This document shows positions 32,528 through 63,498 of a stretch of DNA of 64,000 bases, one piece after another. How positions within the stretch are numbered: position 1 is the stretch's first letter; every line of letters starts with the position of its first letter. Origin of the DNA: Desulfoscipio sp. XC116 (lineage in GTDB: Bacteria; Bacillota; Desulfotomaculia; Desulfotomaculales; Desulfallaceae); the NCBI RefSeq assembly GCF_039851975.1, contig NZ_CP156660.1, forward strand, positions 3,787,035 through 3,851,034, written 5' to 3'. The notes beneath the pieces were generated by a model that was not told the DNA's origin, did no database searches, and saw only the letters and a list, made by a program, of their open reading frames with translations. The position numbers were made by a program, and so were the translations under genes.

Positions 32528-34261
32528 TTAATTATTTTGATATTGCGTCCTTAACATCGAAGAAAAAATTCCTTGTTTTTCTTTTAATTCCAAAGGTGTA
32601 CCTACCTCTGCAATAGCGCCGTCCTTAATAACAACAATCTTATCCGCTCCTAAAACCGTTCTCATACGGTGCGCAATAATCAAAACGGTTTTGTTCTTGA
32701 TAAGCTCACTGAGTGCGCTTTGAATTTTACTCTCATTTTCCGCGTCAAGAGATGCCGTAGCCTCATCCAGCAGGATAATAGGCGCGTCTTTTAGTATCGC
32801 TCTGGCTATTGAGATACGCTGTCTTTCACCTCCTGATAATCTTTCTCCGTTTTCTCCGATCAAGGTATTGTATCCTTGCGGAAGCTTTTTAACGAACTCG
32901 TCGCATTGGGCCAGTTGCGCCGCCTTGATTACTTCTTCATCCGGCGCATCTTTCTTGCCAAGACGGATATTATCCATAACACTTGAATTAAACAAGGTAA
33001 CATCCTGAAAAACTATTGAAAAATTATGCAGAAGGGTTTCAGGATCAACCAAAGAGATATCTTCTCCGCCCAAGGTGACGACCCCTTTGTCTATATCCCA
33101 GAAGCGCGCGGACAACTTTACCACCGTGCTCTTTCCGCCGCCTGAAGGCCCTACAAGCGCGGTCACGTCGCCTTGCTTCGCGATAAAGCTTACATTCTTT
33201 AATGTCTGCACACCGTCTTGATATGAGAAGTCGACGTTTTTAAAATCGATATCGTAGTTTTGGGGATGAAACTCAGCTTTTCCCCCTTGTCTCGGCATCT
33301 CATCCATTTCTTTCATCCGGTTAATGCGTACTTTGAGAAACAGAAGCAGTGCCAAGTTGTTCATCGCTTCCATGATCGGATTATAAATACGTGCTGCAAT
33401 GACAAGAAAAACAAGGTAAGTAAAGACATTTACGGAACCGGCTGCTAAAAGATAAGCGCCGATCAATATAACGCTTGGAAGCCCGAGCTTTAAGAATACA
33501 TAAGACAGGTTGACAAATACGCCTATCAAAAGCTCTCCTTTAATCATAAACCTTTCGTAATTATCTAACTTCGAGTTTAAGGTATTGGAAAAGGCCTCTT
33601 CCCTGTTGTAGGATTTTATTTCATGGACCGATTCAAGCCCTTCTTGCATATTATCCGAGATATCTCTTTTGATATTATAGAGCTCCGCATGCATTCTGTT
33701 TTGAAGCTTTCTCGACAAATAAAAGACCAGGATTGCAACGGGAACTACCCAAAATACGGCAAGAGAGAGCATCCAGTTGTAAAAAAACATCATCACGCCT
33801 ATGATCAAAACAGTCAATCCCGCTGCATAAAGTTGGGGAACTGAATGAGAAAATTGCTGTTCTATTTGTGTGGCATCGTCCATGATGGTTGCGCTCAAAT
33901 CGGCAATATCCTTCTTGCCAAAGAACGCTAAAGGCAGCTTTCTTAGTGTTTCAGCCAGACTAATCCGTCTTCGGGCGCTTTCTTCATAAATTTTAGTGTA
34001 AGTCGAGTCGTATTGAAAATATGCGATAACTAACATCACTAGGAAAAACGCTACAGACATAATAACGTAGTAAAGCGTGCTATTTTCCGGGTTGTTCGAA
34101 GGGTTCAAAAGTAAACGCATGTATTCATCTAAGAATATAAAGCTAAGCACTACCGGGAGCATAAAACTAATGTCCATTATTACAGACCAAATAATTGAGC
34201 GTAAAAGGTCTTTGGCGCCTTTTTCAGACATGGCATATTTATTTTGAAAGTATTTAATCAT
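32528..34261 (-). CDS. ABC exporter half-transporter (heterodimer subunit 2)
   Basis: 577 residues: six-helix ABC membrane domain (about 1-310) fused to an ATPase with Walker A GPSGGGKST, signature LSGGERQR and Walker B IILLDEATASLD. Overlaps the stop of its partner by 8 bp, so the two are translated together as a heterodimer, like YbtPQ/IrtAB-type pairs found near siderophore-related genes. Direction of transport cannot be told from sequence; the fold is exporter type. Confidence 0.9.
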   Translation of the reverse strand: MIKYFQNKYAMSEKGAKDLLRSIIWSVIMDISFMLPVVLSFIFLDEYMRLLLNPSNNPENSTLYYVIMSVAFFLVMLVIAYFQYDSTYTKIYEESARRRISLAETLRKLPLAFFGKKDIADLSATIMDDATQIEQQFSHSVPQLYAAGLTVLIIGVMMFFYNWMLSLAVFWVVPVAILVFYLSRKLQNRMHAELYNIKRDISDNMQEGLESVHEIKSYNREEAFSNTLNSKLDNYERFMIKGELLIGVFVNLSYVFLKLGLPSVILIGAYLLAAGSVNVFTYLVFLVIAARIYNPIMEAMNNLALLLFLKVRINRMKEMDEMPRQGGKAEFHPQNYDIDFKNVDFSYQDGVQTLKNVSFIAKQGDVTALVGPSGGGKSTVVKLSARFWDIDKGVVTLGGEDISLVDPETLLHNFSIVFQDVTLFNSSVMDNIRLGKKDAPDEEVIKAAQLAQCDEFVKKLPQGYNTLIGENGERLSGGERQRISIARAILKDAPIILLDEATASLDAENESKIQSALSELIKNKTVLIIAHRMRTVLGADKIVVIKDGAIAEVGTPLELKEKQGIFSSMLRTQYQNN

Positions 34262-36056
34262 TTTCTCCTCCTTCCTTCACAGTTTCTTTAGCGACTATTT
34301 TCCAGGCGACAGATTTCTGGTATTCATCCCACATAGCTTTGTATAAACCGCCTTTATTCAGCAAATCCTCGTGCGTTCCTGATTCCGCAATTTTCCCGTT
34401 TTCTATAACCAGAATTCTGCCAACATTTTGTACGCTTGTAAGACGATGCGCAATCATAAGCGTTGTCTTGCCGTGACTGAGCTTCTTAAGGGCTTTTTGA
34501 ATTAAATGCTCATTTTCAGGGTCGGCAAAGGCAGTGGCTTCATCTAAAAGCACGATCGGAGCATTCTTTACAATGGCCCTGGCAAGCGCAATTCTTTGCT
34601 GTTCTCCCCCTGAAAGATAGGTCCCTTTAGAGCCTATTACCGTATCAAGTCCATCAGGAAGGTTTGCAATGATTTCTCTTGACTGCGAAAGATCAATTGC
34701 TTTATTTACTACTTCTTCTCCAATGTTTTCCTTTCCAAAAACGATATTTTCTCTTAATGAACCCTTAAACAGCTTTGTGCCTTGAAAAACGAAGGATATG
34801 TTTTCCATTAATTCTTTTTTAGGAATATCCTTGACATTTACTCCGCCAACTAATACTTCGCCCTCGTCTATATCCCAGAAGCGAGCGGCCAGCCGGGCTA
34901 TGGTCGTTTTCCCGCCTCCCGAAGCTCCGACAAGGGCGATCGTTTCACCTTCGTTCAATTTAAAGCTGATTTGATCGATGGCGCGTTTGTCGCTGCCTTC
35001 ATATGAGAATACGACATCCTTAAATTCCAGGCTGTGATTTCCAATTTTTTTTGTGTTTTCGCTATAGCTCATGACCGGATAATCTAGAAGGTTATCCAGT
35101 CTATCAATTGCTTGCTCGGCAATCATAGTATTTTGCTGAAAATACATCGATTTCATTAAAAGCACAGTAAAGATTGGAGATATAAGAATGTAAAAGATGA
35201 AGTCGGCCAGCACAAGGGTGAGATTTTCTTCTCTTCCGATTAAAAAGATAGCCATGGGAATTAAAAAGAAGGCGGCGGATTGCATAATTGCAGTGTAAAA
35301 TGACATTGGTTTTCGCCAAAGAAGCGTATATGCGTAAACCATATCTTTATATTTGATTATGCTGTCGTAGAATCGTTTAAAAGAAAATATGGTTTGACCG
35401 AATGTTTTTACAACCGGAATACCGCGGATATATTCCACGGATTCGGAGCTCATTTCCTCCAACGAATCAAAATACATTTTTTGAAACTTTTTACCTTCAG
35501 CACTCACCATAAACTTCATTGTTATAAAACCCAAAATAATAGGGACAAGAGAAGCCAGACCCATTCTCCACTCTACAATAATAATCAACGCTATCAAAAT
35601 AATGGGGGAAACGATGCTGCCTGCCATATCCGGAAGCTGGTGCGCTAAAAACGCATGCGTTGTTCCCGCTCCGTCGTTGACAATCTTTCGTATTTTTCCG
35701 CTGGAATGCCGATCAAAAAAACCAAGCGGCATAGATAGTATTTTTTCCATACCCGCTTTTTGCATTCCAACCTCTACGCGAAAGGCCGCCAGATGCGAAC
35801 TCATAAGCGCGCAAAAGTAGACCACAATTCCTCCTATGGCACTGGCAAAGGCAAGCCACGCATAAAAGCCGACATTTGAAACATTAATCGCCTGCGTAGC
35901 CGATAATATTTCACGTGTTATGAACCATACAAGCACAAAAGGCACGATGTTAAGAACGGCGGAAACGCCCGACAAGACTAATGACAAAGGCAATAATACT
36001 TTTTTCTTGCCCATATAAGGCGTAAACCTTTTTAGAACAAAAACTTTTTTTGACAT
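34254..36056 (-). CDS. ABC exporter half-transporter (heterodimer subunit 1)
   Basis: 600 residues from ATG 36056 (TAGGAGG 9 bp upstream; a more upstream ATG has no site). Membrane domain then ATPase with GASGGGKTT, LSGGEQQR and IVLLDEATAFADPE. In the last motif the residue usually His/Asp context is kept, so both sites may be active. First gene of the operon whose promoter region holds copy A of the AraC-type direct repeat. The cluster context (ECF importer, AraC regulators, Fur boxes) suggests iron or metallophore traffic. Confidence 0.9.
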   Translation of the reverse strand: MSKKVFVLKRFTPYMGKKKVLLPLSLVLSGVSAVLNIVPFVLVWFITREILSATQAINVSNVGFYAWLAFASAIGGIVVYFCALMSSHLAAFRVEVGMQKAGMEKILSMPLGFFDRHSSGKIRKIVNDGAGTTHAFLAHQLPDMAGSIVSPIILIALIIIVEWRMGLASLVPIILGFITMKFMVSAEGKKFQKMYFDSLEEMSSESVEYIRGIPVVKTFGQTIFSFKRFYDSIIKYKDMVYAYTLLWRKPMSFYTAIMQSAAFFLIPMAIFLIGREENLTLVLADFIFYILISPIFTVLLMKSMYFQQNTMIAEQAIDRLDNLLDYPVMSYSENTKKIGNHSLEFKDVVFSYEGSDKRAIDQISFKLNEGETIALVGASGGGKTTIARLAARFWDIDEGEVLVGGVNVKDIPKKELMENISFVFQGTKLFKGSLRENIVFGKENIGEEVVNKAIDLSQSREIIANLPDGLDTVIGSKGTYLSGGEQQRIALARAIVKNAPIVLLDEATAFADPENEHLIQKALKKLSHGKTTLMIAHRLTSVQNVGRILVIENGKIAESGTHEDLLNKGGLYKAMWDEYQKSVAWKIVAKETVKEGGEND

Positions 36057-36129
36057 TCTGTTTATCCTCCTACATTGGACTTCGGTCATCAACTTGAAAA
36101 CACAATATCGTATTTTCCGCTCTTTCTTC

Positions 36130-36302: not shown

Positions 36303-37814
36303 TTACGCCTCCTTCCTTCCCGTAATGCGCGAAGAAACCTGTCCGCCACCCCGATAACCGATTTTATCCAATAGATATTCCACCGTGCGAATGGAGAAAT
36401 CGTCTGTAATATGACCGCCTTCCAACCGTATTGCTCGTTCACAACAGGAAAGTGCGCACTCGGCATCGTGGGTGATAACCAGAACGGTATGCCCTATCTG
36501 CGCCAGCTTTCGGATCGTACGGCTTACATTTCTCATATTGGCTCCATCCAGCCCGCTGGTAGGCTCATCCAGAATAATAATGGGGGCATCGTACATCAGA
36601 GCCACCCCCAAAGCCAGCCGCTGTTTCTGACCGCCGGAGAGTGTAAATGGATGCTGTTGTTCAAAAGCACTGAGCTCAAGCGTCTGCAGTATCGTCTTTG
36701 CACGGTCGATACGCTCTTGTTTTTCCGGCTCGCCGGTAGTCAGCTCATCCAGCAGGTTTTCACCAAAAAGCTGGCTGTCCAAGTCCTGCGGAATATACCA
36801 CACTTTCCCCATTCGCTCCTTTGGCCTGTTCTTCCGCCCAAACAACAATACCTCGCCGGAACTTTCTTTCAGGAGACCGGCTAAAATCCGGCCGAAGGTA
36901 CTTTTGCCGGTTCCGTTGGGACCGATAATCGCAACAATTTCACCCTTGTGACATGTAAAATCCAGTCCCCGTGCCACTACAGTATCTCCGAAGGATTTGC
37001 TAAGCTGCTTAGTCTCTATGACAACTTCCTCGGTCGATGCGGATTTTTTTGCTGTAAATTGCATCTGATAGATATCAGGAGTTCGAAGCCCGAGAATTTG
37101 GATTTCCTCACCGGTCAGCGCTTTCATCTGTTCTCTGGAGAATTCCCGGACAATCTCGCCATGCTGCACACAGAAAAAACGATCAGCAATATCCATCAGG
37201 TAATAGAGGCGGTGTTCCGCAATCACAATGGTTTTCCCTTGAGCTTTTAAGTCTCGGATAATATCGCCGAATCGATAAGTCGATTCAATATCCAGGTTAG
37301 CAGACGGCTCATCCATTACATAAATTTCCGGATCAATGGCCTGTGCGGAAGCAATAGCCACTTTCTGCCGCATCCCATATGACAACGCATGTAAGCTGTG
37401 GTCTAAAATATCTTCGATTTTGATATGTCGGGCCGCATGGAGAACATGATCACGGATTTCATCATGTGTATAACCGTAGTTCTCACATCCGAAAGCAATC
37501 TCCCCGGCTACCTCATTGGCAAAAAACTGACTTCTTGGGTCTTGAAATACGTTCCCCACAAATCTCCCCCGCTCCCATGAGGCTACTTCGCGTAAAGATT
37601 TGCCATCTATATCCACGTCCCCGCGCAACTCTCCCTCAAAGAAGTAGGGAATTAAACCATTGATGACACGGGTCAGGGAACTCTTACCACTGCCGGACGG
37701 CCCGGTTAACACGATTACTTCTCCGGCGTATATCTTCAAATTAATATTTCTAAGCTGATCTCCGTGCCCACTATAGGAAAACGACAAGTTACGAACCTCA
37801 ATTTCTCTTCCCAT
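36303..37814 (-). CDS. ECF transporter energising ATPase with two fused ABC domains
   Basis: 503 residues comprising two ABC ATPase domains: first with Walker A GPSGSGKSS and signature LSYGMRQK, second with GPNGTGKST and LSGGQKQR, Walker B IIILDEPTSGLDG. This is the EcfA-type fused ATPase. It follows the S and T components in one minus-strand operon. ABC part of a vitamin or metal ECF importer. Confidence 0.9.
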   Translation of the reverse strand: MGREIEVRNLSFSYSGHGDQLRNINLKIYAGEVIVLTGPSGSGKSSLTRVINGLIPYFFEGELRGDVDIDGKSLREVASWERGRFVGNVFQDPRSQFFANEVAGEIAFGCENYGYTHDEIRDHVLHAARHIKIEDILDHSLHALSYGMRQKVAIASAQAIDPEIYVMDEPSANLDIESTYRFGDIIRDLKAQGKTIVIAEHRLYYLMDIADRFFCVQHGEIVREFSREQMKALTGEEIQILGLRTPDIYQMQFTAKKSASTEEVVIETKQLSKSFGDTVVARGLDFTCHKGEIVAIIGPNGTGKSTFGRILAGLLKESSGEVLLFGRKNRPKERMGKVWYIPQDLDSQLFGENLLDELTTGEPEKQERIDRAKTILQTLELSAFEQQHPFTLSGGQKQRLALGVALMYDAPIIILDEPTSGLDGANMRNVSRTIRKLAQIGHTVLVITHDAECALSCCERAIRLEGGHITDDFSIRTVEYLLDKIGYRGGGQVSSRITGRKEA

Positions 37815-37825
37815 TTTTTACCCCC

Positions 37826-38527
37826 TCACAACATGATGCAGCAGATAAGTGCTGCAGCGCTAAATAGCATTAAGAATGTGTCCAGCAGGTTGATGCGGCT
37901 TACATAATAGCTCTGCTTATCACAGGGACTTTCAATTCCTCGGACAATAGCAGAAGCAGACAATTCATCGGCAATCTTTAGAGAGCGGAACACCATGGGA
38001 ACGATAGCGTATTCCAGCGTATTCAGGGGATGCCGCAGAACAGTTCCGAACGAGCGAAGAAAGCCTCTGACCCTCATGGCCTCTTTGACCTCACCGAACT
38101 CATGAACGACCGTAGGGGCAAAACGCAGCATGACCACCAGCACCAGCATGGCCTTTGTGGGCAACGGCAATTTCCGCAGACTGGCAGTAAGCTTGCCGGA
38201 GGGAATCCGAAACAGCAGATAAACTGGCATGGCCGGTAGAATCAGCTTATAGATTATGCTTAGCAAAAGCGGAGATGGAAAAGATATCCCATACTTTATT
38301 TCAGTGTACAATCCAAAGATGGCTGTCAAATAGACCAGGAAACAGCAAATTCCCTGCTTGACTAAACCAAAAAAGCAGAGAATTAGAAGCAGGCAAAAAG
38401 TAAAAATTGCATGGGCCAACAAATCTGTGGTTAAAAAGCTGACAAGGCAGGAGCAGACGGTCAAAAACAAGACCGTCCGTCCATCTACCCGTTCAATTTG
38501 TTTATGAGTCGCTCCAGCCCTGCTCAT
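37826..38527 (-). CDS. ECF transporter T component (EcfT/CbiQ family)
   Basis: 233-residue membrane protein with several hydrophobic helices and the EcfT coupling signatures near the C-terminal half (AMRVRGFLR and SASAIVRGIES, the two Ala-Arg-Gly type motifs that touch the ATPase). Start overlaps the S-component stop by 4 bp. Confidence 0.88.
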   Translation of the reverse strand: MSRAGATHKQIERVDGRTVLFLTVCSCLVSFLTTDLLAHAIFTFCLLLILCFFGLVKQGICCFLVYLTAIFGLYTEIKYGISFPSPLLLSIIYKLILPAMPVYLLFRIPSGKLTASLRKLPLPTKAMLVLVVMLRFAPTVVHEFGEVKEAMRVRGFLRSFGTVLRHPLNTLEYAIVPMVFRSLKIADELSASAIVRGIESPCDKQSYYVSRINLLDTFLMLFSAAALICCIML

Positions 38528-39144
38528 CCCACAATACCGGATTTTTTAAAATGCTTCCGCAGCAGTCTTTGACCGAACAACGTACCCAGAATAGTGAGGA
38601 TTGCTGTAATGGCTGCACCCAACAGCATCAGAGCCGGGCTGGTAACCATAGAGATCTGCATGTTCAGTGTTTCTGCCGTAAATCCACTTTCCACAGCCAT
38701 TGCCGAATAGCTGTCCCAGGCCCACCAGAGAGGAACTGCGCAGCCGACAAAGTTGCCCACACAGTTGATCGTCCAGCCAATCCTTGTGCGGATAGGATTG
38801 CGATATGTATCCTTGCCAATCATAGAGGCTTCTGCAAGTGCGCCTACCACAAGAAAATACGGGAGCAAGAACATATATCCCATAACACCTTGAATCAGCC
38901 CATAGATACCTGCCCACGCAAAAATCAGACCGTGTTTATTAACCCGATAGGAAGCAACTAAGAAAAAAATCGCACAAATAAAGCCATCAATACCAGCCGC
39001 GCCATAAAGATAGACAAGCGGAAAAGGAAGCGTGAAGGAGCCGACTACCATCATAATGCTAAAACAAATTACCATCATGGCGGCAATTGTCATAATATCT
39101 CGGATTCCAAATTTTTTCTTTTGATTTTGAACAGCGCTTTCCAT
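38524..39144 (-). CDS. ECF transporter substrate-binding (S) component, MptD-type
   Basis: 206 residues from ATG 39144 (GGGAGG upstream), six hydrophobic segments, resembling the putative S components annotated MptD in Firmicutes that are encoded with fused EcfA and EcfT plus AraC regulators. Substrate unknown; iron-regulated neighbours make a metal complex or tetrapyrrole-like cofactor an option. Confidence 0.8.
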   Translation of the reverse strand: MESAVQNQKKKFGIRDIMTIAAMMVICFSIMMVVGSFTLPFPLVYLYGAAGIDGFICAIFFLVASYRVNKHGLIFAWAGIYGLIQGVMGYMFLLPYFLVVGALAEASMIGKDTYRNPIRTRIGWTINCVGNFVGCAVPLWWAWDSYSAMAVESGFTAETLNMQISMVTSPALMLLGAAITAILTILGTLFGQRLLRKHFKKSGIVG

Positions 39145-39189
39145 ATGGATCAATCCTCCCATAATGTGAAAATAAAATATGAACCGCAT

Positions 39190-40772: not shown

Positions 40773-40791
40773 GATAATGATTTTCATTATC
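40773..40791 (-). promoter_or_regulatory. Fur-type box
   Basis: GATAATGATTTTCATTATC, a perfect 8-3-8 palindrome close to the Fur consensus. It lies directly downstream of a TATAAT (40794-40799, minus strand) that serves the deleted ABC gene. Confidence 0.8.
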
Positions 40792-40827
40792 ATATTATAA
40801 TAATACTCCATTTTTACTCCGGTCTTC

Positions 40828-40860
40828 TATGCCAAAAAGAATTAGTTTTATGCCAAAAAG
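40828..40860 (-). promoter_or_regulatory. AraC-type operator, copy B (21-bp direct repeat)
   Basis: TATGCCAAAAAG at 40828-40839 and 40849-40860. On the minus strand it precedes the -10 of the deleted ABC gene, which lacks a -35, as expected for an activator site. On the plus strand it is also upstream of the methyltransferase at 40910. Confidence 0.75.
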
Positions 40861-40909
40861 TATTTAGCAAAATAGTTTCATAGAAATCATGAGAAAGGAA
40901 GTACATGTA

Positions 40910-41545
40910 TTGACTAAATCAAGAGCAGATAAAGAAGCAGCGTTTTGGGACAGATTTGCAAAGTATTATGACCGTTTTATGAGCCATATTTATCAAGGCC
41001 AATATAAAGACATATTGAAAATGATAGATGATGAACTTGGTAAGGATAAGATGGTTTTAGAAATTGGAACAGGCACCGGGAAAATTGCAATTGATATTTC
41101 CCCAAAGGCTAAAAAAGTTATAGCATGTGACCTATCCCCGCATATGATTAAATTGGCTGAAGAAAAAGCCCACGCAAAACAGATAAACAACATAGCCTTC
41201 TCAGTGCAGGATGCTTATTATCTTGACTTTCCCGACAATTCCTTTGATGTGGTTGTAGCCTGTAATATGCTGCATGTTGTCCAGCAACCGGGGAAAGTTC
41301 TATCCTCCATAAAAAGAGTATTAAAACAGGACGGGGTTGTTGTAGTCCCGACATATTGTCACGGACAAAATTTCTCAAGCCGCACGGTTTCAAAAACCAT
41401 GGGTATCGTTGGTTTCAGGGCGTACAGCCGGTGGTCGGCAGATTCTTTGCAGGCTTTTTTAGAAGATCAGGGATACATTGTAATAAAAAATTTCTTATTA
41501 AAGTCAACACCGCCTCTGCTGTATATCGTTTGCAAAAAGATTTGA
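40910..41545 (+). CDS. Class I SAM-dependent methyltransferase
   Basis: About 211 residues of the UbiE/Methyltransf_11 type: motif I VLEIGTGTGKIAIDI, motif II ACDLSPHMIKLAEE, and VVVACNMLHVV. TTG at 40910 is preferred, since AAAGGAAG sits 8 bp upstream; an ATG at 40889 has no site. Lies in the iron-responsive island between AraC-type operator B and a MATE fragment; its substrate could be a metallophore-like compound but nothing proves this. Confidence 0.82.
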   Translation: MTKSRADKEAAFWDRFAKYYDRFMSHIYQGQYKDILKMIDDELGKDKMVLEIGTGTGKIAIDISPKAKKVIACDLSPHMIKLAEEKAHAKQINNIAFSVQDAYYLDFPDNSFDVVVACNMLHVVQQPGKVLSSIKRVLKQDGVVVVPTYCHGQNFSSRTVSKTMGIVGFRAYSRWSADSLQAFLEDQGYIVIKNFLLKSTPPLLYIVCKKI

Positions 41546-41870: not shown

Positions 41871-42542
41871 TCACTTTAACACTGCCGGATCAATCTCCGG
41901 ACATTTCTCTACTCTGTAATACTTGAAGTCGCACATATCATCTCCATACGCAAGAGTCTTTGTGCGAATAAATTTCAATCCTCTGAGGTATTCCGCCGAG
42001 ATATAATCGGTTGCGCACAATATTCGACAGATTTCGGGACATCCCTGTTTTTCGAGCCATAACAGTGCGCCGCACTGCACGCAGTTCTGTCCCATGAAAA
42101 AATCTTCAGCCGGGAAATTAAACAGCCAGCCGTGCGGTTCTTTTACGTCAAACTGTTTCGTGAACAATCTGATGATAAATTTAGGGAAACGGAACATGTT
42201 TCGCGATAAAAATTTCATCACGCCCGACGACTCGACCTCTTTTCTGAATTGATCGCATACGATATCCGCAAGCGCCGCATATGCCCTCTCACGATCAAAA
42301 CCCATCTGTTTCTGAAGCGCACGGTACTGGGAAATCATAAAGGGTACCGCGTGAAAGAACATTGCATTTACCGATTTCTTATAAACCGGAAGATCAATCA
42401 TGACCGATTCAAGTTCGGCAAGGGATGCAGCGTAAAACCGGGCATAACAGTCCCTTCCCACATGATGTATCGCGGTTTCACGTGTCCATTGCATATAGAT
42501 CTTCCATGTGCCTACCAGTTTAGCCTCTTTTTTCACGCTCAA
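41871..42542 (-). CDS. L-2-amino-thiazoline-4-carboxylic acid hydrolase family protein
   Basis: 223 residues matching the ATC hydrolase-like family common in clostridia: Cys and His-rich C-terminal half with CPEICRILCATDYISAEYL and the ending TLAYGDDMCDFKYY. ATC hydrolase opens a thiazoline ring to give a cysteine derivative; members next to transporters and regulators are usually uncharacterised. Start is TTG 42542 or GTG 42536, both behind AGGGGAGAAGG. A thiazoline-acting enzyme within an iron-responsive cluster is notable because thiazoline rings occur in siderophores. Confidence 0.75.
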   Translation of the reverse strand: MSVKKEAKLVGTWKIYMQWTRETAIHHVGRDCYARFYAASLAELESVMIDLPVYKKSVNAMFFHAVPFMISQYRALQKQMGFDRERAYAALADIVCDQFRKEVESSGVMKFLSRNMFRFPKFIIRLFTKQFDVKEPHGWLFNFPAEDFFMGQNCVQCGALLWLEKQGCPEICRILCATDYISAEYLRGLKFIRTKTLAYGDDMCDFKYYRVEKCPEIDPAVLK

Positions 42543-42758: not shown

Positions 42759-43046
42759 TCACCAAATTGCGTCAAGTACTGTTGCGGGCAGTGACCATGC
42801 CGCATACATAGTCGGCAGAACAAGCAACGTCAAACACTGTAGCACCAAACAGACACCAATAATAGCTACGGCCATCGGCCTGAAGTATACGTTAAAAACC
42901 AACCTTTTTGTCGAGCTGATCTTTTCTTCATATGTGTATCCATCACCGGTAATAGCGTATATACAACCGAATACGTCATCAAAACAATCGTTGAAATAAG
43001 GTTCCACCACACCTTCCGGCAGACTTCCTTTAATATCGTTAACCAT
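42759..43046 (-). pseudogene. Internally deleted RND (AcrB-type) efflux pump remnant
   Basis: 95 codons. The first half (LPEGVVEPYFNDCFDDVFG then YAITGDGYTY) matches the early porter domain of AcrB-type pumps; the second half (RPMAVAIIGVCLVLQCLTLL then VLPTMYAAW) matches their last membrane helix. About 800 residues in between are missing. Its start overlaps the MATE stop by 8 bp. Confidence 0.65.
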
Positions 43047-44412
43047 AGTTTACCGGCGTACTTTTTGAGGCTCGAAGCCTATTTAACGCTGCAAATTCTC
43101 TAATAATGAGAAAAATACTCAATATAATAGTAAGTAAATCTCCCAGCGGCATGGCAATCCAGGCCCCTGTCTCACCCATAAACTTTGGCAAAAGCAATAC
43201 AATTGGAATAAAAAACAATACCTGTCTTCCCATAACCAATATGGCAGCTTTGCTGCCTTTCCCCAACGCCTGAAAAAAGACAATGCCTATGGCCATGAAC
43301 CCATATAGAAGAAATATGCCCAGAAAAATTCTGAACCTGCCTATACCTAATTGAGCTAAAGATGCATCTGTTATAAACCAGCTTAAAATAAATTCAGGGA
43401 ACAACATAAAGCCAAGCCATAACACACTTGCAATACCTGTAGCTATTCCGGTAAATGATAAGAATGCCGTCTTTACGCGGTCAAATCTTCCGGCTCCATA
43501 GTTTGCACCTATAATTGGCTGTACCCCTTGAGCGATACCCCATAGTGCTATAAACGCAAACATCATCACTCTATAAGAGGCGCCCATTATAATAACACTA
43601 TTGCTTCCACCGTAATAAGACAATACCTTAAACATCAAAGACATCTGAATTGCAGGCATTATTTGCATTACCATCCCTGAAAATCCAACATTTAATATCT
43701 TGGGCATAATATCAAACGACATTTTAAAGCTCTGCTTTGATATTTTAATAACACTTTTGCCTGACTGAAAGTATGCAACATCTCCTATTACAACAAAAAA
43801 TTGGGCAATGATTGTTGCTAATGCCGCACCTTCTATTCCCATTTCAAATACTTTGATAAGAATCGGAACTAAAATAATATTAATGAGCACGCCGGAAATA
43901 ATAATTTTCATGGCCCTTTTCATTCGACCTTCACCACGAATTAGAAAGTTTAATGCAGGACCCAATGCTTCAAAGACAAAGCCTAAAGATATTATTTTTA
44001 AATACCTTGTCCCCAGATCCAATATTTCTCCCTCCGCGCCCATAAACTCGAGCATTGGACCTGCGAAATTATAAACTATGACGGTCAATAATATCGATAA
44101 CGCCGAAGTGCCGATCAACACATTACCAAATAGCTTATTTATAGTTTTCTGATCTTTTTCGCCTATCGCTCTCGATAAAACCGACACCGCTCCCATAGCA
44201 AACAACATCGCACAAGCCATATTTAAAAGAGTTATATTATATGCCAAAACTATGGCGCCAACACCTTCCGCAGAGATAAGCTGACCAACAAATATGGCAT
44301 CTACCATATTGTATAAGCCTACCGCCAGCATACCGACCATAGCCGGTATACCTAACTTCATAAAAAGTCTGCCCATGCTCATTTCCAGTAAATCTTTTCT
44401 GTTATCACTCAT
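43039..44412 (-). CDS. MATE-family efflux transporter
   Basis: 457 residues with twelve hydrophobic segments in two related halves, MATE/NorM type (LFMKLGIPAMVGMLAVGLYNMVD near the start, second-half GIAQGVQPIIGANYGAG). Likely Na+ or H+-driven export of an organic cation or a secondary metabolite. ATG behind GGAGG; translationally coupled to a 40-codon upstream frame. Its promoter carries the AraC-type operator copy C and a Fur-like box, placing it in the iron regulon. Confidence 0.92.
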   Translation of the reverse strand: MSDNRKDLLEMSMGRLFMKLGIPAMVGMLAVGLYNMVDAIFVGQLISAEGVGAIVLAYNITLLNMACAMLFAMGAVSVLSRAIGEKDQKTINKLFGNVLIGTSALSILLTVIVYNFAGPMLEFMGAEGEILDLGTRYLKIISLGFVFEALGPALNFLIRGEGRMKRAMKIIISGVLINIILVPILIKVFEMGIEGAALATIIAQFFVVIGDVAYFQSGKSVIKISKQSFKMSFDIMPKILNVGFSGMVMQIMPAIQMSLMFKVLSYYGGSNSVIIMGASYRVMMFAFIALWGIAQGVQPIIGANYGAGRFDRVKTAFLSFTGIATGIASVLWLGFMLFPEFILSWFITDASLAQLGIGRFRIFLGIFLLYGFMAIGIVFFQALGKGSKAAILVMGRQVLFFIPIVLLLPKFMGETGAWIAMPLGDLLTIILSIFLIIREFAALNRLRASKSTPVNYG

Positions 44413-44571: not shown

Positions 44572-44590
44572 GATGTTGATTTTCATTATC
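44572..44590 (-). promoter_or_regulatory. Fur-like box ahead of the MATE operon
   Basis: GATGTTGATTTTCATTATC matches 17 of 19 bases of the Fur box at 40773. A short TGTTGA triplet tandem abuts it. Position relative to operator C is the same as at the deleted ABC gene. Confidence 0.6.
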
Positions 44591-45043: not shown

Positions 45044-46039
45044 TTAATTTTTAGTGCATTTCGATGGATTAACACCATATTTCTTTCTGAACTTTTCCGC
45101 AAAGTGGCTGGCATCGCTATAACCTACCAGCAATGCCGCTTCGGTAACCCTAAGCTTTTTATCTTCCATCAAGAAACGTGCCATCCCCAACCTTTTATCA
45201 ATTATATAGGCATGAACAGGCACGCCAAACAATTTCTTAAAGCCTGTTTTTAGCTTGTATTCATTAATATGTACCAACCTGGCGAGCTTTCCTATCGTCG
45301 GTGGAGATGCAATATTTTCATCAAGAATTTTTCTGGCTTTATGAAGCGACTCCCTATCAGATGAAGAAAGTTTGGCTGAGGGATAATGCGATCCGCTTTC
45401 CAAGATTAACTCATTCATATAAACAGCAATCAGCTCTAATACTTTCCCTTCAAGGTAAATTCTCCTTATATGATCCCGGTAAGGACAATTAGCAATATCA
45501 TTCAAAATCAACTTGACAGCCGGCGAAAATTTTCTCTTGTAAAAAGCACCGTTTCCATAAGATTGTCCGATACGGGAGTATCTTTTACCCATATGGTGAA
45601 TAAAACTTGCTATTATTTCCGAGTCTAAATGTACTGTAAGCCCGTAAAACCGCTGTCCCGGATTATAGCTGCATATACTATTCCCCTTGTTGCCGTGGAA
45701 AATATAATTTTCCCCGCATTCTATCTCATATTCCTTTTTATTCCCTTCTAGTCTCCACCGGAACGCTTCTCCCAGACAAAAAGCAAGGCAATACTCGGGA
45801 TTGCTTGGCCCTCCCCCCATCGTCATACCTTCAGAAAACGTCGCATCGGCTATAAATACTTCCATTGAGGGTTTAAGGATAATTCTTCGATAATAGCCTT
45901 TTCCGGCTTCTTCAGGTATTTTCATCTCTTTCTGAAACAAATTTGCTTTGTAAATACTATTTAACATAGTACATACAGGGCAATTGCTGTTTTTAGGATT
46001 ATATACCTTATATTTTTGAACCGCATTCTCCATCATCAT
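45044..46039 (-). CDS. AraC-family transcriptional regulator 2 (PchR-like)
   Basis: 331 residues; C-terminal AraC DNA-binding domain (about 230-328; IGKLARLVHINEYKLKTGFK and VTEAALLVGYSDASHFAEKF) and an N-terminal domain of the PchR type, which in pseudomonads senses ferric siderophores. Residues 20-23 are CPVC, a possible metal or redox site. A Fur-like box overlaps the upstream region, so it should be made under iron limitation. It is the best candidate to bind the three TAYGCCAAAAAG direct repeats. Confidence 0.87.
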   Translation of the reverse strand: MMMENAVQKYKVYNPKNSNCPVCTMLNSIYKANLFQKEMKIPEEAGKGYYRRIILKPSMEVFIADATFSEGMTMGGGPSNPEYCLAFCLGEAFRWRLEGNKKEYEIECGENYIFHGNKGNSICSYNPGQRFYGLTVHLDSEIIASFIHHMGKRYSRIGQSYGNGAFYKRKFSPAVKLILNDIANCPYRDHIRRIYLEGKVLELIAVYMNELILESGSHYPSAKLSSSDRESLHKARKILDENIASPPTIGKLARLVHINEYKLKTGFKKLFGVPVHAYIIDKRLGMARFLMEDKKLRVTEAALLVGYSDASHFAEKFRKKYGVNPSKCTKN

Positions 46040-46065: not shown

Positions 46066-46084
46066 GATAATAATAATCATTCTC
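46066..46084 (-). promoter_or_regulatory. Fur-like box ahead of AraC regulator 2
   Basis: GATAATAATAATCATTCTC, about 16 of 19 matches to the Fur consensus, 27 bp upstream of the start codon. Confidence 0.65.
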
Positions 46085-46394: not shown

Positions 46395-49300
46395 TTAATA
46401 CATAATTGTGATCTGTTTAGTCGCAGCGTCGTAGTCTACATTGGTGCCCAAGGTTTCGCTAACGAACCTTAGCGGCACAAAGGTACGTCCGGACGCCAAC
46501 ACCGCCGGAGCACTGTCGATGGACTTCGCCTGCCCGTCAATGAGCACTTTCGCAGAGCCGAGGGTCAGAACGATTTCCCTGTCGCCGTCTTTGATGGTAA
46601 CCTGCTGTGTCTCAGGGTTCCAGTCTGTCTGTGCCCCCAAAGCCTCGCTGACAAACCTGATGGGTACAAGCGTCCGTCCCGCCTTGGTATCTACGCAAGG
46701 CGCGGCATCCAAAGTGTACGTGTTTCCCCCTACAGTTGCCGTTGTCTGTCCGATGGTCAGAATGATAACTTTTTTCTCCTTTGCTTTATTCTCTTCCATT
46801 TTCTTTTCTTCCTCGCTAAAAACGGCAAACTTCGTCAGATGATTGACTTGCGTTACAGCATACCACTTTCCATCCGTGCCCTGCTCGACGATCGTGGGCA
46901 GGTTCACCCATTTACCCGCCTCCTCGTCGTAATAGCGAATAACCGGTTGCTCACCTGCGGCTATCTTGGCCTGATCGTAGGCAATGCAAATAGTGACTGT
47001 CTTGCCGCCAAAGTCGCACCGGCCCGAAGTCGCGACTTCATAGATATCGCTCCCAAGCTTAACCCGCAAACCCTCGGAAACCAGTTTTTTTAAGTCGGCG
47101 GAACTCAGCTTTTCCACGCTGATTACGGCATCCCCGGGGAGTACCCCGGCCGCTATTTTCACCGTAGTCTGACCGTAAGTAACAGAACCACCGGTTGCAG
47201 CTTTAATGTTCTTACTTCTGCCGGTCACGGACGACGCCGACGATGCCCCGCCGCTGCTGCTGCCGCCACCTCCGCCGGATGGGTTAATCGTCTTCACAGT
47301 AAACACCTGCTCCGGACTGTCCCAGCGCAACTTTTCCACCAGCTGAGCACGTTTAGCCTGGAACTTCTGTTTTTCCTCCGCCGTGGCTGTTCCGTCTTTC
47401 ACTTTTTTCTTCAGTTCAAAAAAATTCTCCGGATATACTTCCGGTTTAACGGTTATATTGACGGCCTTCCTACTGTGCTGATCCGTTACCTTAAAATTAT
47501 AAAACAGGTTATTTTGTTCCCGCTGTTCCAGTGTAAAATTAGCAGTACCCACAATCGTTCCCAATGCTTCTTCTACTCCATCCGAGTAAGGACCTTCAAC
47601 ATAAATCCGATCCTGCTCCGGTATTGCACCGGGCCATAGCTCAGTTAAAGCCGCCTGCATGGCGCGGAAAGCAAAAGATCCACAAACACAAACCACCCCG
47701 TCTTCTTCTACGCCAACATCTGAATATGCAATCGTGCGCGTATTACCGTTTTGTTTAACCTGCAGGGAACCCAGCACAACATCATTAGCGCGGGCTGCAA
47801 TTAAGTGAGAAATATTATCGTGCGGTAATAAAGAACGCTGTCCCGCTGCGGGGTATACATATTCCAGACCTTCCAGTACCGATGGGATCTTATTGTTGGT
47901 AAAAGCACCTTCAGAAAGCATAACCGGCACAATGATTACAGAAGCGTCGGGGTGAGCCGCTTGCTGCGCCATTACCACCGATCGAAGCCCCGGTTCGCCA
48001 ACAGCGGCAAAACCATAGTCTACTTCCCAAAAACCATGTTCTTTTTGAAGTTTTTGCCCCAGCGAAGCCAGGTTATATTTCCAGACCGCCAGATCCTGAG
48101 CTGATGAAGTTCCGTGCGCGACCAGCACAACCACTTCTTGATCGGCTTGCCGGCTAACGGAAGCAATGCGATCATTTAAAATTCCGGCCACCAAAAGGTG
48201 CTCGTCCAACGCAGAGGTTAGCTCAATGTCAGCACTGCACTGAACCGGCTCCAATCCCTCCTCAGCCGCCTCCTCGGCAGTGATGGAACTGGGTAATCCC
48301 AGCATGAACTTAATTTCTTCTATATGACCCGAGGCTGAAGCAACAAAAATTGGTACGGCTATAATGCGTTTCACACCCTGTGCTTCCAGTTTCCGGACAG
48401 CAGTGGAAATATCTTCACCCGGAACAGGTTCCAGGAAACCATACTCTACCGGGAAAGGACCGCGTATGTTCTTAACCGCATCGCGTACCGGCTGGTTCCA
48501 ATCGTCATCGGATGAGCCATGAGCCAGGACCAAAATACCGGTACTGTTTATCTGAGCCGTTTCAAGAGTGAACAGCTGATCCGGACTGCCCCAGCGCACT
48601 TTTTCCACCAACTGGGCACGCTTGGCTTGAAACTCCCGCATTTCCTCCGCCGTGGCTGTTCCGTCTTTCACTTTTTTCTTCAGTTCAAAAAAGTTTTCCG
48701 GATAAACTTCCGGTTTGACGGTAATATTGACAGCTTGTCCACTAAGCTTATCCGTCACTTTAAAATTATAAAACAGGTTGCTGTGTTCCCGCTGTTCCAG
48801 AGTAAAATTGCCGGTACCCGCAATTGTTTCCAATGCATCTTCCACTCCGTGCGAGTAAGGACCTTCAACGTAAATCCGGTCCCGCTCCGGTATTTCGCCG
48901 GGCCATAGCTCAGCTAGAGCCACCTGCATAGCACGAAAGGCAAAGGATCCACAAATACAAATTTTCCCATCCGGCTCAACCGCCACATCGGTATAGTTAA
49001 TTCGGGAAATTTCGCCCCCCGTTTTAATCTCCAAAGGCGGCAGAACCACGTCATTCACTCTTAGCTCAATAAAGCGGGCAATATTGGAGTGCGGCAGCAA
49101 AGCTCTGTTGCCGGCCCCGGGATAGCGGTAATCCAATCCATTTAACAAATTATGGGGTATTACCGTGTCGGTAAAGTACCCTTCACTCAGCATCACCGGT
49201 ACCACCAGCACGTCCCCCTGATAAACGGCTTCATAGACAGAATCGCGCACCGTGGGCTCACCCATAAGTGCAAAGCCGTAGCCGGCATCCTTCAGACCAA

Positions 49301-49937
49301 GTAAATCTTTCAAGTAGCCGGCCAAAGATGCAAAGGTTTCCCGCGATTTATGCCGGCCTTCCTCGGTATCCGAACCGTGCCCCACCAGCACGGCTACTTC
49401 ATTGCCCGGATTCTCGCTGATGGTCTCTAACCGGTCAGCCAAGATTCCCGCCACCATTACATTGTCATCCATAGCCGGAGTGAGCACGATCTCAACCTCG
49501 GTGTCCACCGGCGTCAGTTCCTCTTCTTCAGTGTCACCCCCGCCTCCGCCGGGATGCCCTCCGGCGGATTCCTCCGCTTCCGGCAGGTCAGGTCTTAAAC
49601 CCAACACATATTTTATTTCCTCGATGTGGTTGGAATAAGAAGAAATAAACAAAGGCACAGCAATAATTCTATCAACACCCCGTGCTTCTAAAGCTGCCAC
49701 TGCGTCATGAATATTTGGCTCGGCGAACTCCAAGAAACCCAATTCCACGGGATAAGACAGACTCACCTCTTCCACCGCCTGCTGTACGTCGTCGTTCCAG
49801 AAAGTTTCGTCGGAGCCGTGAGCCACCACCAGAACCCCAATGTTTTCTTCCGCAGCACCGCAAAACGGGACAACAGAAAGTACGGCCATAAACAGCAGCA
49901 AGACCACCGCCAGCCCTTTGACACCGGACCTAAACAT
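46395..49937 (-). CDS. Secreted tandem CbiX-like/FmdE-like protein with copper-amine-oxidase-N-type C-terminus
   Basis: 1,180 residues. Signal peptide (1-28). Unit 1: two CbiX/SirB chelatase-like half domains (LVVAHGSDETFW, LVGHGSDTEEG; about 32-300) then an FmdE-like domain (CICGSFAFRAMQVALAELWP, about 315-465). Unit 2 repeats the order (LVLAHGSSDDDW, LVAHGTSSAQD, CVCGSFAFRAMQAALTELWP; about 470-885). Then a Gly/Ser linker, a ZU5-like beta domain (about 910-1030) and two copper-amine-oxidase N-type repeats (VPIRFVSEALG, VPLRFVSETLG). Chelatase-type catalytic His residues are kept. The export signal makes an extracytoplasmic metal or tetrapyrrole role likely rather than sirohydrochlorin metalation. 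Controlled by a perfect Fur palindrome with a 30-residue peptide gene ahead of it. Confidence 0.8.
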   Translation of the reverse strand: MFRSGVKGLAVVLLLFMAVLSVVPFCGAAEENIGVLVVAHGSDETFWNDDVQQAVEEVSLSYPVELGFLEFAEPNIHDAVAALEARGVDRIIAVPLFISSYSNHIEEIKYVLGLRPDLPEAEESAGGHPGGGGGDTEEEELTPVDTEVEIVLTPAMDDNVMVAGILADRLETISENPGNEVAVLVGHGSDTEEGRHKSRETFASLAGYLKDLLGLKDAGYGFALMGEPTVRDSVYEAVYQGDVLVVPVMLSEGYFTDTVIPHNLLNGLDYRYPGAGNRALLPHSNIARFIELRVNDVVLPPLEIKTGGEISRINYTDVAVEPDGKICICGSFAFRAMQVALAELWPGEIPERDRIYVEGPYSHGVEDALETIAGTGNFTLEQREHSNLFYNFKVTDKLSGQAVNITVKPEVYPENFFELKKKVKDGTATAEEMREFQAKRAQLVEKVRWGSPDQLFTLETAQINSTGILVLAHGSSDDDWNQPVRDAVKNIRGPFPVEYGFLEPVPGEDISTAVRKLEAQGVKRIIAVPIFVASASGHIEEIKFMLGLPSSITAEEAAEEGLEPVQCSADIELTSALDEHLLVAGILNDRIASVSRQADQEVVVLVAHGTSSAQDLAVWKYNLASLGQKLQKEHGFWEVDYGFAAVGEPGLRSVVMAQQAAHPDASVIIVPVMLSEGAFTNNKIPSVLEGLEYVYPAAGQRSLLPHDNISHLIAARANDVVLGSLQVKQNGNTRTIAYSDVGVEEDGVVCVCGSFAFRAMQAALTELWPGAIPEQDRIYVEGPYSDGVEEALGTIVGTANFTLEQREQNNLFYNFKVTDQHSRKAVNITVKPEVYPENFFELKKKVKDGTATAEEKQKFQAKRAQLVEKLRWDSPEQVFTVKTINPSGGGGGSSSGGASSASSVTGRSKNIKAATGGSVTYGQTTVKIAAGVLPGDAVISVEKLSSADLKKLVSEGLRVKLGSDIYEVATSGRCDFGGKTVTICIAYDQAKIAAGEQPVIRYYDEEAGKWVNLPTIVEQGTDGKWYAVTQVNHLTKFAVFSEEEKKMEENKAKEKKVIILTIGQTTATVGGNTYTLDAAPCVDTKAGRTLVPIRFVSEALGAQTDWNPETQQVTIKDGDREIVLTLGSAKVLIDGQAKSIDSAPAVLASGRTFVPLRFVSETLGTNVDYDAATKQITIMY

Positions 49938-50025
49938 TCTACTCATCCTTTCAGCTGATTAATCAATCATTATGCGCTTTCTCCTCATTCTCTAACCGAA
50001 GTAGAAAATGAGAAAACTATACTAA

Positions 50026-50118
50026 TCAATTATCTGACGAATCATTCATGTCATCATCGCGTTCTATTATTTCCAGGCCGACATTTTCCAAAATTTCATT
50101 GATCAGTTCCCTGGTCAC
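50026..50118 (-). CDS. 30-residue acidic peptide ahead of the CbiX/FmdE-like gene
   Basis: GTG at 50118 behind AAAGGAGG (6 bp spacing), 30 codons, ending TGA at 50026. N-half helical (ELINEILENVG), C-half acidic with DDDMNDSSDN. First gene after the Fur-controlled promoter and 89 bp before the large secreted protein. Too short for family assignment. Confidence 0.55.
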   Translation of the reverse strand: MTRELINEILENVGLEIIERDDDMNDSSDN

Positions 50119-50154
50119 CTAAATCCTCCTTTCAATAAATTAAAACATAAATAA

Positions 50155-50183
50155 TAAACGATAATGAAATTCATTATCGTTTA
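50155..50183 (-). promoter_or_regulatory. Perfect Fur palindrome
   Basis: 29-bp perfect palindrome (14+1+14) whose core is GATAATGAAATTCATTATC (50160-50178). It sits just downstream of the -10 of the promoter at 50193-50221, ideal for repression. Confidence 0.88.
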
Positions 50184-50192
50184 CATACTATT

Positions 50193-50221
50193 AAAATATC
50201 CAGACTTTAACTATTTGTCAA
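50193..50221 (-). promoter_or_regulatory. Promoter of the Fur-controlled CbiX/FmdE-like operon
   Basis: TTGACA (50216-50221) and TATTTT (50193-50198), 17-bp spacer, minus strand. Confidence 0.75.
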
Positions 50222-62882: not shown

Positions 62883-63311
62883 CTAGATGCTTATACTTTT
62901 TACGGCCTTGGCCATATTTGTAACACTGGATGATGTCAGAATCTTAATCGGCTTGCCGTGTTTTCTGCATAATTTCTTGGCGCTGGCACAAGCATTATGG
63001 CTGTTACAGTCTACCGGGCAAAAAACCATGTCACATTTGATGATCTTATTCTCCAATGGTTTATCACCTTTTCTCCAGTAACCATCTAAATATATGCATT
63101 TATAGCCACAGTTTTCAATCAAGTCTGCATACAGGTGTTTAAATTTGGTTATCCCGCCAATAATCAATATTTTTTTCATGCACTGTTTACAGCTGCGACA
63201 GTCTTTATCATTTGCCGGCCTTGTACCACATTCGCAATTAACTGCCCGGCGTTTTGATTTTTTTTTATTTACCCTGTCAAAAGCAATATTTGTCCAACCC
63301 ATTTGCGCCAT
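62883..63311 (-). CDS. DUF2325-domain protein with N-terminal Cys cluster
   Basis: 142 residues. N-terminus is basic and Cys-rich (CECGTRPANDKDCRSCKQC), C-terminal ~95 residues form a DUF2325 domain (IIGGITKFKHLYADLIENCG, DMVFCPVDCNSHNA). DUF2325 proteins are small and widespread in Firmicutes without known activity. The Cys motif could bind a metal or Fe-S cluster. ATG behind AGGAGAG. A long palindrome with Fur-like core lies upstream. Confidence 0.8.
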   Translation of the reverse strand: MAQMGWTNIAFDRVNKKKSKRRAVNCECGTRPANDKDCRSCKQCMKKILIIGGITKFKHLYADLIENCGYKCIYLDGYWRKGDKPLENKIIKCDMVFCPVDCNSHNACASAKKLCRKHGKPIKILTSSSVTNMAKAVKSISI

Positions 63312-63457: not shown

Positions 63458-63498
63458 GCTTAATTAGTGATAATGACATTCGTTATCACTAATTAAGC
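63458..63498 (-). promoter_or_regulatory. 41-bp palindrome with Fur-like core
   Basis: 16-bp perfect arms GCTTAATTAGTGATAA / TTATCACTAATTAAGC around a 9-nt centre. The middle 19 bp match Fur consensus at about 14-15 positions. No U tract on either side, so an operator is more likely than a terminator. Confidence 0.6.

Follow-up and report, generated by a model that had tools for sequence, protein, structure and literature searches.

What might a protein built of repeated chelatase and FmdE domains do outside the membrane of a bacterium, and why would its gene stand behind an iron-type operator? The question is raised by a 64-kb stretch of the genome of Desulfoscipio sp. XC116 (contig NZ_CP156660.1, positions 3,787,035 to 3,851,034; hereafter the window), which encodes a chelatase-FmdE protein, hereafter the window chelatase protein. 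By computation we determined which domains, folds and conserved residues it has, whether its N terminus is signal-like, and how its gene stands to Fur boxes and iron genes. The reading that we favour, with a probability of roughly one half, is that of a Fur-repressed, exported and surface-anchored iron-acquisition protein, which would release or relay Fe(II) from an extracellular chelate to an importer. The protein is laid out as follows.

46395..49946, minus strand: exported protein of 1183 aa with signal, two chelatase-FmdE repeats, Gly/Ser linker and tail (single open reading frame (ORF), Pfam)
49851..49946, minus strand: N terminus resembling a signal peptide, residues ~1-32, with a 15-residue hydrophobic stretch (Kyte-Doolittle 3.17)
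49077..49844, minus strand: SirB-type two-lobed chelatase of repeat 1, about residues 35-290, with His43, Glu73, His107 and His190
48552..49049, minus strand: FmdE domain of repeat 1, about residues 300-465, with Cys330 and Cys332
47802..48545, minus strand: chelatase of repeat 2, about residues 468-715
47283..47783, minus strand: FmdE domain of repeat 2, about residues 722-888 (best Pfam FmdE stretch 753-882)
46797..47270, minus strand: Gly/Ser-rich linker and a stretch first labelled ZU5-like
46404..46733, minus strand: two Cu_amine_oxidN1 repeats, presumed surface attachment (Pfam)

A family of exported chelatase-FmdE proteins

Pfam recognised four CbiX stretches (5.9e-47), two FmdE stretches (5.2e-14) and two Cu_amine_oxidN1 stretches (1e-35), and repeats 1 and 2 share 56% identity across 425 positions. 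The initial annotation, made from the DNA letters, had proposed one long chain with a signal peptide, two repeats of a CbiX-like pair plus an FmdE-like domain, and two copper-amine-oxidase N-type repeats; all of these were recovered. Its ZU5-like domain was not confirmed: residues 900-1060 gave no Pfam ZU5 match at E≤1 and only a weak Peptidase_S68 match (0.038). Pfam matches to CcmE and ferrochelatase were below cut-off and were disregarded. The linker and tail (residues ~878-1182) have counterparts of 50-58% identity in further proteins of the bacterial family, large ones among them, as expected for a surface-attachment module. Stretches similar to the Cu_amine_oxidN1-like tail are also found in many other ORFs of the same genome.

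An AlphaFold2 model of repeat 1, built on an alignment of 42 repeats (mean predicted local distance difference test score (pLDDT) 90.9), was compared with known structures by Foldseek and VIA-align. The top match was SirB (5zt7; Z 23.1, 232 residues, 2.3 Å), followed by coproporphyrin ferrochelatases (Z 19.8), FetB of Porphyromonas gingivalis (9b86; Z 18.7) and the periplasmic CbiK of Desulfovibrio vulgaris (2xvz; Z 18.3). As modelled, the window repeat has the two-lobed class II chelatase fold of the SirB/CbiX type, nearer to SirB (Z 23) than to FetB in a ranking by structural scores rather than by a tree with FetB. The FmdE part of repeat 1, modelled alone (pLDDT 91.5), matched the crystal structures 2glz (Z 10.6), 3d00 (10.2) and 2gvi (9.1), the next row being at 4.5, and the predicted domain has the fold of FmdE (PF02663). 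Repeat 1 therefore matches both SirB and FmdE structures, the point on which the domain assignment had been staked.

Conservation was read from 42 of 43 repeats, L088 being omitted because its length and scores were the same as those of L087; alignment A3 held 40 of these 42 rows (L081 and L093 omitted). His43, His107, Glu110, Asp160 and His190 are invariant in all 42 repeats, position 73 is Glu in 39 and Asp in three, and position 162 is His in 39. The repeats also have a conserved Ser/His/Glu cluster, S103-S105-H107-E110. In a sequence alignment, His43 (the His of an HGS motif) and Glu73 fall on His9 and Glu42 of the nickelochelatase CfbA, which we take to be ligands of the first metal site, His75 presumably being the His of the second. 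Two NCBIfam nickelochelatase models were passed when four stretches were summed (F430_CfbA, 141.1 bits; PRK00923, 131.5 bits; cut-offs 120). SirB/CbiX and CfbA, which have the two-lobed fold in common with the repeat, work inside the cell in cofactor synthesis, whereas the window protein is exported, repeated and fused to FmdE.

The FmdE domains are less uniform. Of the 42 repeats, 36 have Cys330 and 40 have Cys332; a His precedes the Cys in 25, HPS[DK]GH occurs in 27, and HGHxC, which resembles FHGHxC, in eight, all of them archaeal rows. The corresponding places in the window read DGKICICG and DGVVCVCG, with Cys present and His absent, and none of the three patterns (His before Cys, HGHxC, HPS[DK]GH) was found in the window copies. 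The accessible text of PMC2954224 describes two solved FmdE proteins that hold a metal through two His and two Cys, and a third, 3d00, which is without such a site and misses two of these ligands. Compared with the FHGHxC motif and second Cys of characterised FmdE proteins, as given there, the window copies have the same fold and Cys330/Cys332 only, the two His ligands being absent. Matches to the FmdE part only were also seen in separate open frames (~190-330 codons) of the archaeal genomes G551, G519, G559, G753 and G763.

A scan of named genomes, from which two rows were dropped (L098, a 19-residue match, and L059, the same place as L050), left 40 loci, namely the window together with L050 and L060-L097. 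In 37 of the 40 the protein holds one to three nearly complete repeats, the exceptions being L092 and L094, which are without FmdE, and the short, signal-less L096. An N-terminal hydrophobic segment (mean ≥2.2 over 15 residues) is present in 37 of the 40 proteins; below the threshold are L093, which is cut by a contig end, L086 (borderline, 1.99) and L096. This supports export of the window protein and most of its relatives, as predicted from their N termini, and it is why we rejected a cytosolic siroheme or cobalamin chelatase misread as exported. Where anchors were tested, SLH domains were found in L051 and L052, a dockerin type I in L076 and Cu_amine_oxidN1 in the window, and another relative gave a sub-threshold LPXTG-anchor-like match. 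The protein is predicted to be attached to the cell surface.

Bacillota that carry the protein are Desulfotruncus, Syntrophomonas, Syntrophaceticus, Ammonifex, Moorella and Desulfofundulus, with Desulfotruncus arcticus DSM 17038 (L050), Syntrophaceticus schinkii Sp3 and Ammonifex thiophilus SR among the carriers with strain names. Many archaeal carriers are records of the anaerobic methane-oxidising (ANME) type or of Methanosarcinales/Methanophagales, mostly metagenome-assembled genomes (MAGs). The unit was found in 8 of 113 genomes of the same class, in 11 of 398 phylum genomes when the window repeat was the query (six as the chelatase pair only and two as a short match only) and in 32 of 392 genomes of the archaeal phylum of G500, where some matches cover only the chelatase or the FmdE part. 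Its occurrence in the class, in the archaeal phylum and at 40 loci rules out a single-gene oddity. In a maximum-likelihood tree with midpoint root and some long branches, a single group (97/97) of 28 archaeal repeats is separate from the bacterial repeats. L060, labelled as an archaeon, groups with Syntrophomonas, and L072, labelled Armatimonadetes, lies nearest Desulfofundulus; these two records may be mis-binned MAGs. A 4229-codon archaeal open frame (G890:C1, ~4282870-4294317) contains four repeat matches, one of them with an internal stop. In listings of open-access literature, and in the accessible part of PMC8351635, we saw no description of exported CbiX-FmdE proteins.

Fur-like box, palindrome and small peptide gene

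Upstream of the gene lie three elements.

50193..50221, minus strand: sigma-70-like promoter TTGACA-17-TATTTT, preceding the palindrome; weak alone
50155..50183, no strand: 29-bp perfect palindrome TAAACGATAATGAAATTCATTATCGTTTA (14+1+14), with a Fur box at 50160-50178 inside
50026..50118, minus strand: gene for a 30-aa microprotein VTRELINEILENVGLEIIERDDDMNDSSDN with GTG start and ribosome-binding site, between palindrome and protein

The 14+1+14 symmetry of the palindrome, and the Fur box inside it, are as first described. In 20 first-order Markov random windows no palindrome arm exceeded 10, and the window itself holds one further long palindrome (arm 13, 1783-1808); together with the enrichment of the Fur motif this rules out a chance palindrome. 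With up to three mismatches, the Fur-like motif matched the window 19 times (both strands, overlaps counted) against 0.20 expected. With up to two, it gave 14 sites in the 4.26-Mb genome against one for the reversed pattern, and seven of these 14 fall within the window. The feoA-feoB genes of the same genome are preceded by a Fur-like site with one mismatch, and outside the window one site precedes an ABC (ATP-binding cassette) ATPase gene and others lie near methyltransferase genes. Six FUR-family matches were found in the genome. In D. arcticus and in the complete genome of a relative of the same taxonomic order (G427; L157/L162), the chelatase gene is again preceded by a Fur-like box and a small peptide gene. 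A Fur box at the promoter, enriched over chance and common to iron genes of the genome, is thus supported by sequence, and to that extent the proposed iron control stands, with the enriched motif and the site before feoAB behind it; we infer that Fur would act there as a repressor. Sigma-70-like sites were no commoner in the region than by chance (13 found, 10.5 expected).

As RNA, the palindrome is predicted to fold into a stem-loop close to the presumed 5′ end of the transcript. Flanks that differ in sequence but extend the box by complementarity were found in five places, namely at the chelatase gene and DUF2325 gene of the window (50155-50183 and 63469-63487), at L050:8472 and the L050 chelatase gene (L050:9559), and at the L157 chelatase gene (L157:12526), with predicted stem-loop energies from -14.5 to -36.4 kcal/mol; other Fur-like sites, 40773 and 44572 among them, have no such extension. 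That the flanks differ yet stay complementary fits a stem-loop near the 5′ end of the RNA and also a longer operator, and either may be present.

The 30-residue peptide gene noted between promoter and protein was found there too, and it is kept before the orthologous chelatase gene in two other genera (L050:9621-9710 and L157:11991-12080; 63% and 57% identity). Its conservation rules out a chance ORF. Together with further copies (L123-L140) it defines a family of 23-43 aa with the pattern TKELI(D/N)(Q/E)IL..IGLEKIE and a charged tail, mostly behind a strong ribosome-binding site, with TTG or CTG as the start codon in some copies. All 16 genomes of the bacterial family that were searched gave one match or more at E≤10 (weakest best match 0.57), and 31 of 299 genomes of the phylum matched at E≤0.001, some matches crossing a stop. 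The microprotein is not specific for iron, because its contexts include two-component and membrane-protein genes.

Iron genes around the family and neighbours in the window

By phmmer, FeoB is encoded within 10 kb in 13 of the 40 loci, against 0.34 expected for the flanks covered, from the 40 FeoB_C matches in 50.8 Mb of 19 carrier genomes (the window was entered with 10 kb flanks), and in 9 of the 14 loci that have at least 6 kb on both sides. The same search found FeoA in 13 loci, DtxR in 10 (that of the window 44 kb away), DUF2325 in five, a Fec-type substrate-binding protein (SBP) in four and FecCD in three. The FeoAB/DtxR linkage occurs in archaea and in thermophilic Bacillota. In D. arcticus the chelatase gene is followed by genes for an SBP, FecCD and an ATPase and then by an AraC orthologue. 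What the loci linked to Fur or DtxR have in common, in bacteria and archaea alike, is iron, and the reading that we favour is extracellular release or relay of it. A ZinT-family protein is encoded upstream of an archaeal chelatase gene (L083:7376-8485, Pfam; homologue L095:6163-7272), and the N termini of the ZinT-family and chelatase proteins look alike by eye.

The G427 genome differs in what follows the gene. On the same strand come AraC, thioesterase, cysteine synthase and phosphopantetheinyl transferase genes, followed by a fusion of dihydroxybenzoate (DHB)/salicylate ligase and salicylate synthase, nonribosomal peptide synthetases of 2281 and 1862 aa and an Irp3-like thiazolinyl imine reductase. 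From its gene content this is a siderophore cluster of the yersiniabactin/pyochelin type. Among six genomes searched for Condensation domains, that of the window has two pieces ~60 kb from it, G008 has one and G514 two on contigs other than that of the chelatase, and G497 and G512 have none. No siderophore cluster was recognised among the ORFs up to ~74 kb past the right end of the window, where only the Condensation family was searched.

Other features of the window, several of them with Fur-like sites, are the following.

45044..46039, minus strand: AraC-family regulator, co-directional, with a Fur-like site at 46066-46084
43039..44412, minus strand: MATE efflux protein, with a Fur-like site at 44572-44590
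40773..41545, plus strand: Fur box (40773-40791) and methyltransferase gene (40889-41545)
36303..39189, minus strand: energy-coupling factor (ECF) transporter with double ATPase, T component and MptD-family S component
32528..36092, minus strand: paired ABC transporters, each a fused permease and ATPase
62883..63311, minus strand: DUF2325 protein, with a Fur-like palindrome at 63469-63487 upstream

The AraC regulator has orthologues near the chelatase gene in L050 (89% identity) and L157 (70%), a pair with 84-87% identity to the ABC transporters lies 3.4 kb upstream of the L061 chelatase gene, and the DUF2325 protein is 70% identical to one encoded upstream of the L050 chelatase gene. DUF2325 recurs near the chelatase gene in the bacterial loci L050, L072, L074, L079, L090 and L097. 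The ECF set is separated by ~6 kb from the AraC gene and by ~7 kb from the chelatase gene; its ATPase passes the cbiO subfamily model, and its T component matches PF02361, named cobalt transport protein, and scores far under the cut-off of the cobalt-specific CbiQ model (18.1 against 111.8). The set, which adjoins the ABC pair and an AraC gene, may be a heme or siderophore importer. LhaSTA of Staphylococcus lugdunensis is an iron-regulated ECF transporter for heme uptake, according to the accessible part of PMC7299338; the window set is likened to it by ECF type and not by comparison with LhaS, its S component being named for the MptD family. Within the Fur-rich stretch, 41871-42542 encodes a member of the L-2-amino-thiazoline-4-carboxylate hydrolase family (PF14196, 1.2e-15), for which a thiazoline siderophore as substrate would be speculation.

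Proposed iron release and its rivals

In the favoured reading, low iron would cause the Fur-controlled protein to be displayed outside the membrane, where its chelatase cleft would bind chelated iron, heme or another iron tetrapyrrole being the most likely ligand. In an anaerobic, reducing setting the His/Glu site would take up the iron in the form of Fe(II), by reverse chelation or by exchange. Iron or the iron chelate would then be handed to a membrane importer, which may be FeoB in many relatives, in D. arcticus the Fec-type ABC transporter and in the window, perhaps, the ABC pair or the ECF set, and FmdE would probably assist in holding metal or substrate. The modelled fold and the conserved residues make binding of a tetrapyrrole by the repeat plausible, and an iron tetrapyrrole is the likely, though unproved, substrate.

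Precedents exist for a chelatase fold outside the cytoplasmic membrane. FetB and IhtB, which we take to be two names for one P. gingivalis protein, and the periplasmic CbiK of D. vulgaris are placed as we propose here. The FetB and CbiK chains have 261 and 263 residues, which leaves no room for FmdE or a second repeat, and are 16-17% identical to the window repeat. Exported class II chelatases were already known, and the view of CbiX-type folds as exclusively cytosolic, from which the initial annotation had started, needed correction. For IhtB, described as an outer-membrane CbiK-like protein, removal of iron from heme has been suggested (work cited in the accessible part of PMC6460266), and the available portion of a review (PMC13402209) describes FetB as exchanging porphyrin metals.

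Several points weigh against our reading. Repeat 1 of the window has Asn at position 162, and His107 is one residue off CfbA His75 in the ungapped HMMER sequence alignment, a shift of the second His that may also set the protein apart from SirB/CfbA. The His ligands of characterised FmdE metal sites are missing from the window copies, and FmdE may not be essential, because in L092 and L094 the protein with the chelatase pair has no FmdE. No FeoB was found by phmmer near the window chelatase gene; 27 of the 40 loci are without it, many on short contigs, and the FeoB counts are not independent because related genomes are included. Not every Fur-like site resembles an iron promoter: outside the window, one is found within a 752-codon ORF and another overlaps the start of a gene. 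In Bacteroides fragilis, disruption of a cbiK homologue left heme-iron use unaffected (unpublished data mentioned in the accessible part of PMC6460266). Finally, the siderophore cluster of one relative fits a siderophore role equally well.

The main rival keeps iron and gives up the tetrapyrrole: the chelatase fold would serve as a pure surface receptor or metallochaperone for Fe(II), passing it to FeoB where it is scarce, for example in sulfidic water. The FeoAB/DtxR linkage in archaea and thermophilic Bacillota agrees with this, as do the ZinT-family protein, a zinc-recruitment lipocalin, upstream in L083 with its homologue in L095, and the S103-S105-H107-E110 cluster; however, the two-lobed cleft and His190 (42 of 42) have been kept, which a simple metal receptor would perhaps not need, and we regard this rival as rather unlikely. 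Less likely again is a role in the use of a yersiniabactin-type (salicylate/thiazoline) siderophore, which the protein would bind as a surface receptor or strip of its iron by reduction. The biosynthesis cluster after the G427 gene and the AraC gene conserved in the window and L050 would suit it, but Condensation pieces lie away from the chelatase gene or are absent in the other genomes of the six searched, and Feo accompanies many loci whereas siderophore synthesis accompanies one, the latter not having been searched elsewhere. An extracellular cobalt, nickel or corrinoid device of cobaltochelatase-like kind is very improbable: the F430_CfbA and PRK00923 models, the PF02361 and cbiO matches and the acceptance of several metals by class II chelatases speak for it, and the Fur/DtxR context, the FeoAB linkage and the low CbiQ score of the T component against it. 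Of the originally proposed capture or exchange device, then, export and iron are retained (Fur, FeoAB/DtxR/Fec context); for cobalt or nickel, only family names were found.

A bolder form of the iron-release reading, which we consider possible but doubtful, is that the chelatase-FmdE family is an oxygen-independent extracellular dechelatase of heme or Fe-tetrapyrrole that feeds Fe(II) directly to FeoB. To our knowledge, it would give FmdE its first role outside the cell. An exported chelatase-class protein near FeoB recalls, for the favoured reading as well, the proposals for FetB/IhtB and for heme-iron release in Bacteroides; in B. fragilis, according to the accessible part of PMC6460266, heme iron is freed in the periplasm and then imported by FeoAB, so that extracytoplasmic release and FeoAB import are combined as proposed here. 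That part of the paper identifies no dechelatase, and a btuS1 btuS2 mutant still released porphyrin. HmuS, in the available text of PMC13227078, is large and CobN-like and resembles neither CbiK nor HemH. If the dechelatase reading is true, Bacillota and ANME archaea would have a counterpart of the Bacteroides heme-iron pathway that makes use of another enzyme class.

The iron supply of strict anaerobes, especially of anaerobic methane-oxidising archaea, is poorly known. In 326 genomes of archaeal methanogens, methanotrophs and alkanotrophs, gaps in FeoAB suggest import mechanisms yet to be described (PMC8351635, accessible part). With some of its members encoded next to feoAB and dtxR, in bacteria and archaea alike, this exported chelatase family offers a concrete and testable candidate.

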